Positions 1,582 through 47,366 of a stretch of DNA of 64,000 nucleotides are shown one piece after another (the first letter of the stretch is position 1; every line of letters starts with the position of its first letter). The position numbers and the translations under genes were made by a program. Source of the DNA: Chitinophaga pinensis (lineage in GTDB: Bacteria > Bacteroidota > Bacteroidia > 2-12-FULL-35-15); contig CAMCYR010000007.1 in NCBI GenBank assembly GCA_945885475.1, positions 1-64,000 of the forward strand, read 5' to 3'. Below the pieces are notes generated by a model, which saw nothing but the letters and a program-made list of their open reading frames with translations, did not search any database and had not been told where the DNA came from.

Positions 1582-1805
1582 GTGAAAACAATCCCCCTTA
1601 CCCCCTTCACCAAGGGGGAATAAATCCTGCTAAAATATTGGTTCGAAGTTGCTTTACAATTGTACAACTCCTCAATAGAAAAAGGGAAACAAATTCTTCG
1701 AAATAATATTTCGGAGTAGTAATATTGTCGTACAATTCCCCCTTAGAAAAAGGGGGTTAGGGGGATTCCCTACTTAAACTTTTCCTTCAAAGCAGCTAAC
1801 TGACT
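1566..1805. repeat. Direct repeat, copy A of the mutS/tex junction
   Basis: This stretch begins in the last codons of the mutS-like gene and runs into a copy of the tex 3' end. It matches 1982-2221 at a constant offset of 416 bases with few mismatches. Each copy contains two inverted palindromic elements (here 1589-1621 and 1735-1766) around a shared core. The junction between two convergent genes has therefore been duplicated. Confidence 0.9.
1589..1621. repeat. Dispersed palindromic element (CCCCCTTCACCAAGGGGG core)
   Basis: The core CCCCCTT, 4 bases, AAGGGGG forms a 7-bp stem flanked by AATCC- and GAAT-type ends. Related copies lie at 1735-1766 (inverted), 1895-1926, 2005-2036, 2150-2183 (inverted) and, more diverged, 45873-45913. 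One copy is inside murF at about 47047-47079. Such short G/C-rich palindromes are dispersed in many Bacteroidota genomes. No encoded function is visible. Confidence 0.8.
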
Positions 1806-1887: not shown

Positions 1888-1980
1888 GTGACAACAATCC
1901 CCCTTGCCCCCTTCACCAAGGGGGAATAAATCCTGCTAAAATATTTGTTCGAAGTTGTTTTACAATCGGATAATTCCTCT
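1873..1980. repeat. Short partial copy B of the mutS/tex spacer repeat
   Basis: It contains the palindromic element (1895-1926) and the following sequence up to about GAAGTTGTTTTACAATC. It then breaks off, and the full copy C starts at 1981-1982. It lacks the second inverted element and the tex tail. Confidence 0.75.
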
Positions 1981-1981
1981 T

Positions 1982-2221
1982 GGGGATTGTGGATTAGATG
2001 AAAACAATCCCCCTTACCCCCTTCACCAAGGGGGAATAAATCCTGCTAAAATATTGGTTCGAAGTTGTTTTACAATCTTACAATTCCCCGATAGAAAAAG
2101 GGAAACAAATTCTTCGAAATAATATTTCGGAGTAGTAATATTGTCGTACAATTCCCCCTTAGAAAAAGGGGGTTAGGGGGATTCCCTACTTAAACTTTTC
2201 CTTCAAAGCAGCTAACTGACC
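1982..2221. repeat. Direct repeat, copy C of the mutS/tex junction
   Basis: This is the partner of 1566-1805 at offset 416. It carries palindromic elements at 2005-2036 and 2150-2183 and runs into the genuine 3' end of tex (stop at 2186-2188). Copies A, B and C together fill the whole 604-base spacer, and nothing else was recognised in it. Confidence 0.9.
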
Positions 2222-4441: not shown

Positions 4442-5253
4442 ATGATGATCCGATTTATGAACTTTTTTAAAACACATTGACACATAGTTTTTAAGAACTT
4501 TGCGTTTGGGTAATATCTAACATAGTTTAAGCAAGCTTCAAACAAAGAGATTATACTACATGAAATCAATCTATATGTTTAAAATTTTATTTTTCTATAC
4601 ATAACTAGTTATTTTATTTGACTCTTTTTTTTAATAAGTAAAAACAGCTACGTTTCTTTGTGTTAAAAACTAGGTTTAACAAATATAACTATCCTTAACA
4701 CTTAGTATTTATAATATTTTCAACAGCTTCGATGATTTTGTTGAAAAATAAATATCAATTTCGAAATGTGTAATAATTGAACTGCTTTTAAGGATATATT
4801 CCGAGCTCAATAGAATACAAAAGGAACAAAACAACAGAAATAGATACGCACATTGCAACAATTCGCTTTGTGCAGATTGCAAGTCCGATATACAAATTGG
4901 ATATATATTTAAAAATATTCTACATTTAGTAACCACAAGAATTCAGACTTGTTTCACTTTAGACCATACCATCATTGACAAAGAGAAAAAAATATCAGCA
5001 TAATAAAAAGACCTCGCACTAAAAAGATTATAGAGCGTGCAACTTTTGACAGATCGTAAACATCATATGTAATATTGTAATTCGAAAACAAAAAGACCTT
5101 GTACTAATAAGTTTATAGAGCGTGCAACTTTTGACGGATCTTTAACATCATGCTTGTAATATTATATTTCGAAAGTAGAGACCAGCGACTACTCAAAAAA
5201 CGGGGCGACACTGAAAAGCCATACGAGTAAGGATAAAATTTAATCACGTAAAT
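4442..5253. other. 812-base AT-rich gap with no supported gene
   Basis: The only structure recognised is the 85-bp tandem repeat at 5005-5174 and a possible short stem (TACTC...GAGTA) in the leader just before the gene at 5254. A 75-codon open frame on the minus strand (4709-4936) has low-complexity, Cys/Ser-rich content and no homology signal. Confidence 0.6.
5005..5174. repeat. Two-copy tandem repeat, unit 85 bp
   Basis: Copy 1 starts at 5005 and copy 2 at 5090. Both contain AAAAAGACC, then TATAGAGCGTGCAACTTTTG, then GATC and AACATCAT, and end in TAATATT...TTCGAAA. The copies differ at scattered positions, so the duplication is not recent. No open frame spans them. They lie 80-250 bases upstream of a T9SS cargo gene and could be part of its regulatory region or a structured RNA. 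Confidence 0.8.
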
Positions 5254-45736: not shown

Positions 45737-45872
45737 GGGATAATTTCGTTATAACAATAATTTCAACTACTAATTGAAATCCCGTGTCGTGACAAGGGAT
45801 GACGGTATAAAGGGAAATAGACCTTAGCAATAACATACAAAGGACATTACAGCTTAATAACTTATATTCTGA

Positions 45873-45913
45873 TCAATCCCTCTGGCCCACTTTTCAAAGG
45901 GGGAATTATCCCG
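45873..45913. repeat. Diverged copy of the dispersed palindromic element beside murF
   Basis: AATCCCTCTGGCCCACTTTT, then CAAAGGGGGAATTATCCCGA, is a degraded form of the element in the mutS/tex spacer and inside murF. Its end (GAATTATCCCGAC) matches the murF copy (GAATTGTTCCGAC) better than the mutS/tex copies. It ends 13 bases from the murF stop codon. Confidence 0.6.
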
Positions 45914-45926
45914 ACTTGCATCCTAG

Positions 45927-47366
45927 TTACAACACCGCAACAACTTTCTCTAACTTAATTCCACGCGAGCCTTTAATAAGAATGGTAGCGTCTTTTATTT
46001 GATGTTGTATTAAAAACTGAACCAAATCATCACTGGAAGCAAATGTTTTAGCATTCACCTTTCCACCGGCTTTTACAAAAAGTGACCCAACCAGAAAAGC
46101 ATTTGAAATATTTTTTTGTTTCAGAAGTTCGACAATGGCATCATGCTCTTTTTCGCTCTCGGAGCCTAACTCAAGCATATCACCAAGTATCACAATTTTA
46201 TTTGACTGATTCAACGTTGCGAAATTTTCAATCGCCAAACTCATGCTGGATGGGTTGGCATTATAATAATCCAATATCAACGTGTTGTTCTTTGTCTTTT
46301 GTAATTGAGAACGATTATTTGACGGTGTATATTCTTTCAGTGCCTGATTAATGAATATATCATCAACTTTAAAATAGTTTCCGATACATGCAGCGCACAA
46401 TAAATTATAATAATTATAAATACCAACCAGTTGGGTAGAAACGATCTCCGACTTTTTAATATTGGCGGCAGAATAGCGAGTTCCCCATTGAAAAGAAATA
46501 TATTCCCCATTGTTTTCAAGAACTGCACCAACAATATCATATAATTTTTTTGTGCCGTAGGTTACTCTTTCAATTCCTGCGGATAGATCAGTAAGAACAC
46601 CATCGTCGCCATGAACAAATAATTTTCCCTTTTTTTGCTGAATGAATTTATATAATTCACTTTTACCTTTTATAACACCTTCTATTCCGCCAAATCCTTC
46701 CAAGTGAGCTTTACCAATGTTTGTGATAACACCAAAATCGGGTTCGGCTATTTTACTAAGCATATCGATCTCGCCCTGATGATTGGCGCCCATTTCTATA
46801 ATGGCAATTTCATGTTCTTTCCTTATATTTAAAAGAGTAAGCGGAACACCGATGTGATTATTTAAATTTCCAACCGTTGCAAGCACCTTGTATTTTTTGG
46901 AGAGGACTGCATTGATCAATTCTTTAGAAGTTGTTTTACCATTAGAACCAGTGATTCCAATAACTGGAATATTCAATTGTTTGCGATGATGATTTGCGAG
47001 TTGTTGAAGAGCGGCGAGAACATTGTCAACTAAAAAAAATTTCGCATCAATCCCCCTGCCCCCTTCTCCAAGGGGGAATTGTTCCGACTCACGATTAAGA
47101 TTGTCTTTCTCTACATTCAAATCCCCAAGGGGGAATTGTTCCGACTCACGATTAAGATTGTCTTTCTCTACATTCAAATCTCCAAAGGGGAATTGTTCGT
47201 CAATTACAGCATAGGCACAACCCATCTCAATTGCTTTTTCAGCAAACAGATTTCCGTTAAAATTTTCGCCTTTGAGAGCAAAGAAGATCGATCCGGGTTT
47301 GATGTCCCGTGTATCCGTGCAAACGGAAGGGTGTTTTAAAAAAATAGAATAAAGTTTGTCTATCAT
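45927..47366 (-). CDS. murF: UDP-MurNAc-tripeptide:D-Ala-D-Ala ligase MurF with an in-frame repeat insertion
   Basis: MurF adds D-Ala-D-Ala to complete the peptidoglycan precursor. The 479-residue protein has the N-terminal Mur domain (CTDTRDIKPGSIFFALKG), the P-loop IGITGSNGKTTSKE, EMGANHQGEIDML, the central-domain IGKAHLEGFGG and DYYNANPSSM, and a C-terminal domain ending in IKGSRGIKLEKVV. Residues 58-106 are an insertion not expected in the family, made of two 19-residue repeats (QFPxGDLNVEKDNLNRESE) and a third start followed by GEGGRGI. The frame stays open, so the protein is probably made. It follows nadE on the same strand with a 54-base gap. Confidence 0.94.
   Translation of the reverse strand: MIDKLYSIFLKHPSVCTDTRDIKPGSIFFALKGENFNGNLFAEKAIEMGCAYAVIDEQFPFGDLNVEKDNLNRESEQFPLGDLNVEKDNLNRESEQFPLGEGGRGIDAKFFLVDNVLAALQQLANHHRKQLNIPVIGITGSNGKTTSKELINAVLSKKYKVLATVGNLNNHIGVPLTLLNIRKEHEIAIIEMGANHQGEIDMLSKIAEPDFGVITNIGKAHLEGFGGIEGVIKGKSELYKFIQQKKGKLFVHGDDGVLTDLSAGIERVTYGTKKLYDIVGAVLENNGEYISFQWGTRYSAANIKKSEIVSTQLVGIYNYYNLLCAACIGNYFKVDDIFINQALKEYTPSNNRSQLQKTKNNTLILDYYNANPSSMSLAIENFATLNQSNKIVILGDMLELGSESEKEHDAIVELLKQKNISNAFLVGSLFVKAGGKVNAKTFASSDDLVQFLIQHQIKDATILIKGSRGIKLEKVVAVL
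47049..47195 (-). repeat. Repeat insertion inside murF: palindromic element plus 57-bp tandem repeats
   Basis: At about 47047-47079 the CCCCCTGCCCCCTTCTCCAA plus GGGGG palindrome appears inside the coding sequence. The sequence after it (GAATTGTTCCGACTCACGAT ... CATTCAAATC) is repeated in tandem with period 57 (units starting at 47076 and 47133, partial third at 47190). 57 is divisible by 3 and the insertion totals about 147 bases, so the murF frame is preserved. Confidence 0.9.

Follow-up and report, generated by a model that had tools for sequence, protein, structure and literature searches.

A dispersed REP-like palindrome in frame inside murF of a Chitinophaga pinensis genome, and its likely helper of the DUF559 nuclease family

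The murF gene of the Chitinophaga pinensis genome studied here (45927..47366, minus strand, of the 64,000-nucleotide stretch that we call the window) holds a palindrome and tandem 57-bp repeats within its reading frame, raising the question of how such DNA enters a protein gene and what moves it. The ORF of 479 aa encodes a UDP-MurNAc-tripeptide--D-Ala-D-Ala ligase: the Pfam profiles Mur_ligase, Mur_ligase_M and Mur_ligase_C each pass their cut-off, thus the N, M and C domains are present, and the top PDB matches are MurF structures. Read along the minus strand, the protein runs AYAVIDE-QFPFGDLNVEKDNLNRESE-QFPLGDLNVEKDNLNRESE-QFPLGEGGRGI-DAKFFLVDN. The first two segments are encoded in frame by 57-bp units 1 (47142..47198, minus strand) and 2 (47085..47141, minus strand), which differ at two positions, and QFPLGEGGRGI by a full palindromic element, AATTCCCCCTTGGAGAAGGGGGCAGGGGGATT (47049..47080, minus strand). 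TRF reports a repeat at 47068-47198 with period 57, 2.3 copies and 97% matches, and the insert amounts to 49 residues (19+19+11), all in agreement with the original prediction, made from the sequence alone. The same prediction called murF an essential gene; its identity as MurF stands, but essentiality is unproven because the genome also has an alanine racemase/Mur ligase fusion, a second MurF-type gene (locus L335, contig 21, 972-3509).

The AlphaFold model of this MurF has a mean pLDDT of 82 and is confident except mainly at residues 62-106, where pLDDT drops below 50 against about 90 in the surroundings. The insert is hence predicted to be unstructured between intact strands, in keeping with the proposal that it occupies a surface loop able to tolerate it, and MurF bearing it is presumably active. 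Its predicted translation yields NLNRESEQFPLGD as a candidate peptide.

The palindromic element, about 32-39 bp long and open in the frame in which it is read here, is a hairpin with C5/G5 arms and a G-rich tag after it; in murF, these parts are the hairpin CCCCCTTGGAGAAGGGGG, a spacer and the tag AGGGGGATT. The 57-bp units lie beside the palindrome, but a unit is not a palindrome copy: it joins a half-hairpin to a 42-bp spacer that has no other occurrence in this genome. Directly after murF, where a related copy had been noted, there is a second, degenerate one (45872..45916, minus strand; 84% identity over 44 query bases), also found in the genomes G035 and G003 and absent from G011 and G006. 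Since the unit junction (GAGTCGGAACAATTCCCCC) is similar to the outer flank of this copy (AAGTCGGGATAATTCCCCC), the 57-bp unit may derive from a second element plus its outer flank. The lengths 57, 39 and 30 are all multiples of three, as expected if an open frame is selected for, and the predicted tandem growth in frame-keeping steps is supported. A repeat of ATTGATG..AAATT surrounds the murF palindrome; as a target duplication it is only suggestive, because the net gain there is 18 bp and not 39.

Copies of the element are dispersed through the genome. Six matches to the hairpin core CCCCCTT..AAGGGGG were found in the window, against none in 200 mononucleotide shuffles. Over all 84 contigs of the genome (3.06 Mb), the strict pattern of hairpin and tag gave 26 copies and a spaced pattern 33 matches per strand (some being overlapping readings of one site), with none for the reversed control of either; BLAST with the murF stretch also gave 26 matches. 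The non-coding DNA at 1.6-2.2 kb, where the palindrome had been predicted to recur, contains two REPIN-like doublets, that is, inverted pairs with tags outward. The first (1590..1767) reads tag-hairpin, about 119 bp, hairpin-tag; the second (2006..2183) is identical to it at 172 of 178 aligned positions, and a single copy (1896..1924, minus strand) lies between the two. Rfam gave no match at the element sites, and a known RNA element was rejected on this ground. Elsewhere in the window, Rfam RF03081 (“DUF805 RNA”) matches 5170-5238 with 78.5 bits (gathering score 51.1), immediately preceded by an 85-bp tandem repeat of 2.0 copies (5005-5174).

We found a MurF-like match in all 59 genomes searched; the murF loop was readable in 22 members of the genus, and in G007 it was read separately, from a contig end. 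The palindrome is present in murF of three of the 22: this genome (G000), G035 (KFPLGEGGRGID) and G003 (KFPLEKGARGID), the latter two with the hairpin only. The remaining readable loops lack it, as VIDEKEFQKNENYFLVDD in G011 illustrates, so a normal MurF loop is ruled out: the insert is missing from most relatives. Between DTR and GSNGK, our MurF shows a net gain of 44 residues over the element-free G011 and of 38 over the element-only G035. The nearest relative, G007, is an independent MAG whose MurF shows 94% identity across residues 1-101; it has four or more 57-bp units, with the contig breaking off within the array. The loop thus occurs empty (G011), with the palindrome only (G035, G003), with palindrome and two units (G000), and with at least four units (G007). 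The insert is not private to this genome: murF of G007, G035 and G003 has either the palindrome or units of it, and pyrF has the element as well. The murF loop of G005 contains a different palindrome, ACCTGCCTG-CCGCA-CAGGCAGGT, from a family represented by 1-6 exact copies per genome in six sister genomes. The carriers are not monophyletic in the MurF core tree, where insert-free G011 groups with G035 and G003 (97/92). At least two changes are therefore required, and one has to suppose a loss, a recombination event or a second insertion.

These comparisons also bear on the quality of the assembly. In a draft of 84 contigs, short tandem repeats might be an assembly artefact; however, the independent draft of another species, G007, has the 57-bp unit at matching codons, and the palindrome is found in murF of G035 and G003 as well, which leaves an artefact extremely unlikely. 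That a mobile palindrome sits in frame in murF is, in our view, nearly certain.

The element has also entered other protein genes. In pyrF, which encodes orotidine 5'-phosphate decarboxylase according to Pfam, it lies in frame in one loop, again in tandem, with three units in G000 and two in G007; the pyrF loop of G035 has two full element copies 39 bp apart. At the same loop, G017, G011, G003, G031 and G006 carry a sibling palindrome, TCCCCCTCTGGAGGGG..AGGGGGAGG, and G024, G021, G001 and others have neither. The element is in frame too in a UvrD/PD-(D/E)XK helicase of G022 (L135, 280-3027; SFPLEKGVRGI), and once in a 765-aa ORF of G002 without Pfam match. The 83 element sites surveyed include loci chosen for murF and pyrF, so the share of in-gene copies among them is not an estimate. 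The murF insert is in frame, absent in most relatives and predicted to be unstructured, and the element recurs in pyrF; for these reasons we regard it as an intragenic REP-like element with RPE-like behaviour.

What could move such an element is suggested by a family of genes that lie between copies of it. The type-G DUF559 protein matches the PF04480 profile with 100.3 bits (cut-off 20.6) and has a PDB relative, 3hrl; VDF and IE-x-DG are among the conserved residues of these nucleases. Solo DUF559 genes in the genus lie between a hairpin with its tag on one side and, on the other, an inverted tag and hairpin: inverted flanking copies scoring at least 34 were detected at 31 of 35 such genes (36 cases were read, one of them too short; locus L111 was left out). 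The threshold of 34 was not preset, as it was taken from the maximum of the first shuffles (n=108). Direct copies were noticed in the control run, hence both orientations were counted outside the genus, where flanking copies, inverted or direct, were present at 34 of 47 DUF559 genes and in none of 235 shuffles; inverted copies alone reached a score of 34 in 20 of 49. Among control ORFs, a set of 257 that includes orthologues from many genomes, one had inverted copies and none direct copies. Other Bacteroidota families, in which 38 of about 49 solo DUF559 matches were read (18 + 20 fetched) and 36 had enough flank, contributed 26 of these 36 in either orientation, with copies often direct and up to 259 bp. 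On plasmids of other phyla (Cyanobacteriota, Alphaproteobacteria, Deinococcota), the count was 8 of 11; 12 of 37 records were fetched, and one was excluded with its DUF559 inside a large protein. At score 34, no flanking copies are seen for 4 of the 35 genus genes and for 13 of the 47 from elsewhere.

Among the plasmid cases, direct copies flank the DUF559 gene of Picosynechococcus sp. PCC 7002, and the palindrome flanking that of S. meliloti is found at 26 places in one record; the corresponding repeat is found at 508 places in 161 records of the plasmid collection. Palindromes of the CCCTCACCC type, which we take to occur near DUF559 genes in proteobacteria, were tested for on the plasmid set. 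Copies of the type-G element gave no match in the plasmid search. We also observed plasmid DUF559 genes between sufB and sufC in Sphingomonas parapaucimobilis (L281, 1462-1872) and between paaD and paaZ in Deinococcus psychrotolerans (L283, 1504-1857). Broken DUF559 genes still between hairpins were seen at L334 and L214 (G010, G035). On contig 11 of this genome, an element array with an 81-bp period lies at a DUF559 gene and partly forms its C-terminal codons. At L047 (3486-4388), the DUF559 ORF of this genome continues through about seven 27-residue repeats built of the 81-bp hairpin array, and contigs 19 and 34 carry related arrays without DUF559.

The double flanking also speaks to the nature of the hairpins themselves. 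Most copies examined elsewhere in this genome are intergenic, as would suit ordinary terminators or mRNA stabilisers, with the murF and pyrF copies as chance G/C-rich codon expansions. That reading was already disfavoured, and we consider it highly improbable given the matching sequence at both ends of DUF559 genes, the tens of dispersed copies, and homologous loops that carry the element in some sister species and lack it in others.

For one DUF559 cassette, the site is unoccupied in sister species. Only 5 bp lie between cutC and an asparaginase-family gene (named from sequence) in G003, and in G033 the two genes overlap; a DUF559 cassette separates them by 625 bp in G006, 796 bp in G017 and 1228 bp in G000, and lies beside cutC at a contig end in G007. 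The gap in G035 (158 bp) has two hairpins and no DUF559, a remnant, and that in G011 (96 bp) has another palindrome.

The type of flanking palindrome follows the type of DUF559 protein. The clade marked by MTYNKELKPFARENR.. goes with CCCCCTTGGAGAAGGGGGCTAGGGGGATTGA, the kind to which the murF element belongs; ..IIPYNPNLK..LARDLRNNSTLGEV goes with CCCCTCTTGAGAGGGGYYAGGGGTGTGT, MPASKSN..YSYNK with CCCCCTCTCCGAGGGGGCAGGGGGAGG, and further clades likewise. Over 23 of the 31 genus cases scoring at least 34 (eight were omitted, the domain as cut holding stops), DUF559 clade and hairpin type were correlated with a Mantel rho of 0.45, a value reached in none of 2000 permutations. DUF559 pairs within one genome differ in their palindromes (mean similarity 0.34 over 8 pairs), whereas like DUF559 proteins in different genomes have like palindromes (0.68, 26 pairs).

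Dispersed copies, moreover, abound where the matching nuclease type occurs. Every one of the eight genomes that have a type-F DUF559, whether intact or broken, contains the type F hairpin (5-97 raw copies); of the 28 genomes lacking this nuclease, 5 have the hairpin (Mann-Whitney p 4e-6 on raw counts, uncorrected for kinship). The hairpin is most numerous in G032 (97 copies) and G010 (62), and G003, G028 and G017 have 9-13 copies without that nuclease. In G032, 19 of 19 type-F regions, chosen for paired hits, show the order tag-hairpin, an interval of about 85-97 bp, hairpin-tag; their ends are constant and their flanks dissimilar. Types C/G count 0-27 copies away from the gene in eight nuclease genomes versus 0-13 in 28 without (p 0.002, likewise uncorrected for kinship). 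The genomes richest in type-G copies are close relatives; G003 (13), G008 (8) and G011 (7) hold type C/G copies without a type C/G DUF559, and G019, G018, G006 and G002 have the nuclease yet 0-3 copies away from it. Type E is sparse, with 1-8 copies in 11 of 36 genomes, some being DUF559 flanks themselves.

Taken as a coupled system, which we think they very probably are, DUF559 genes and palindromes still admit an explanation in which the nuclease does not act on the repeats. Vsr-like homing endonucleases exist, and DUF559 could be a passenger, a homing-type or IS-like nuclease gene that inserts at pre-existing palindromes spread by an absent or unlinked transposase. Palindromes do occur in genomes without a matching DUF559, and a palindrome type tracking the DUF559 clade fits target choice as well as it fits a helper role. 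REPs are also described as insertion targets in a 2006 paper, as cited in PMC3733652. The flanks, however, are two complete copies, direct or inverted, and not two halves of one cut copy. We hold this main rival to be unlikely, though deserving of attention. A second rival, in which RAYT/TnpA-REP (Y1 HUH) transposases move the palindromes and DUF559 is a mere neighbour, draws on the RAYT subclasses with atypical hairpins in Bacteroidetes described in PMC6006769 and on the single Y1 transposase gene of this genome, its only match to PF01797. No palindrome was found within about 1 kb of that gene, whereas the DUF559 genes are flanked, and we judge RAYT-driven movement to be improbable.

The best explanation overall is, we believe, that of a REP-like palindrome in frame in MurF with DUF559 as its likely helper. 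A REP-like palindrome would have inserted into a variable loop on the surface of the MurF N-terminal domain and be translated as an unstructured peptide; the 57-bp half-hairpin repeats would then have arisen beside it, their copy number shifting in frame-keeping steps. The likely helper would be the small, little-studied Vsr-like PD-(D/E)XK nuclease DUF559, which may bind its cognate hairpin and tag, probably while the DNA is single-stranded at forks or in the course of repair, and nick at the tag, with repair synthesis or strand transfer then pasting the hairpin elsewhere; in-gene copies would survive only in loops and in frame. An action of DUF559 on hairpins is suggested by its position and pairing, in analogy with RAYTs, and on that analogy the chance that it catalyses the movement is about even. 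With slightly less confidence, we propose that solo DUF559 genes with flanking hairpins could make up a widespread class of minimal mobile elements, found in Bacteroidota, Cyanobacteriota, Alphaproteobacteria and Deinococcota. Mobilised by a Vsr-like PD-(D/E)XK nuclease, they would stand beside REPIN-RAYT as an independent counterpart and would seed tandem peptide inserts in loops of MurF, PyrF and other conserved enzymes. REPs are common bacterial repeats, of which the GTAG class has a known partner enzyme and the CGTC class had none found (PMC3733652). With nuclease genes lying between cognate hairpins in several phyla, what moves palindromes becomes directly testable, and DUF559, if this is true, would be a candidate helper type for palindromes without a known transposase. 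The murF and pyrF inserts let one follow clearly how selfish DNA turns into protein sequence, from the empty loop by way of the palindrome to tandem units. A link between DUF559 and dispersed palindromes was not found in the literature searched, a collection that lacks most subscription papers.

Among known systems, Caulobacter VsrA and other Vsr-like nucleases share the Pfam family PF04480 with DUF559; VsrA is tied to DNA damage, and the accessible part of PMC12907096 describes these nucleases without a link to dispersed palindromes. MITEs are likewise non-autonomous and dispersed with inverted ends; here, in contrast, solitary ends of about 35 bp are found and there is no classical transposase. 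As in transposons and IS, a gene (DUF559) lies between repeat copies and has an empty site in relatives. The original prediction likened the insert to the Rickettsia palindromic elements (RPEs), short palindromes open in frame inside unrelated protein genes (PMC10969869, PMC3733652), and in this behaviour, seen in both murF and pyrF, the likeness holds. RPEs, however, are about 150 bp long (PMC10969869) and end in CGTC (PMC3733652), whereas the present element has about 32-39 bp, a G-rich tag (AGGGGGATT) with no CGTC at the element ends as read, another sequence and phylum, and a linked nuclease gene; it is by description that we set it apart. PMC3733652 distinguishes GTAG and CGTC classes of REPs, the latter including the Rickettsia elements, with no dedicated transposase found in the account it gives. 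The closer parallel is REP/REPIN-RAYT: a dispersed short hairpin with a conserved end tag, singlets, inverted doublets and in-gene copies, with cognate repeats that flank a gene and a repeat type that tracks the protein type (PMC3116915, PMC3733652, PMC6006769). Inverted doublets are found here in the window and at 19/19 regions of G032, whose type-F doublets match the REPIN layout given in PMC3116915. The tags, in contrast, are G-rich (AGGGGGATT, AGGGGTGTGT, AGGGGGAGG), neither GTAG nor CGTC, GTAG being absent from the element copies read; this genome has no flanking Y1 (HUH) RAYT, and the linked protein is not a Y1 HUH enzyme but a PD-(D/E)XK nuclease, DUF559 taking the place of RAYT.
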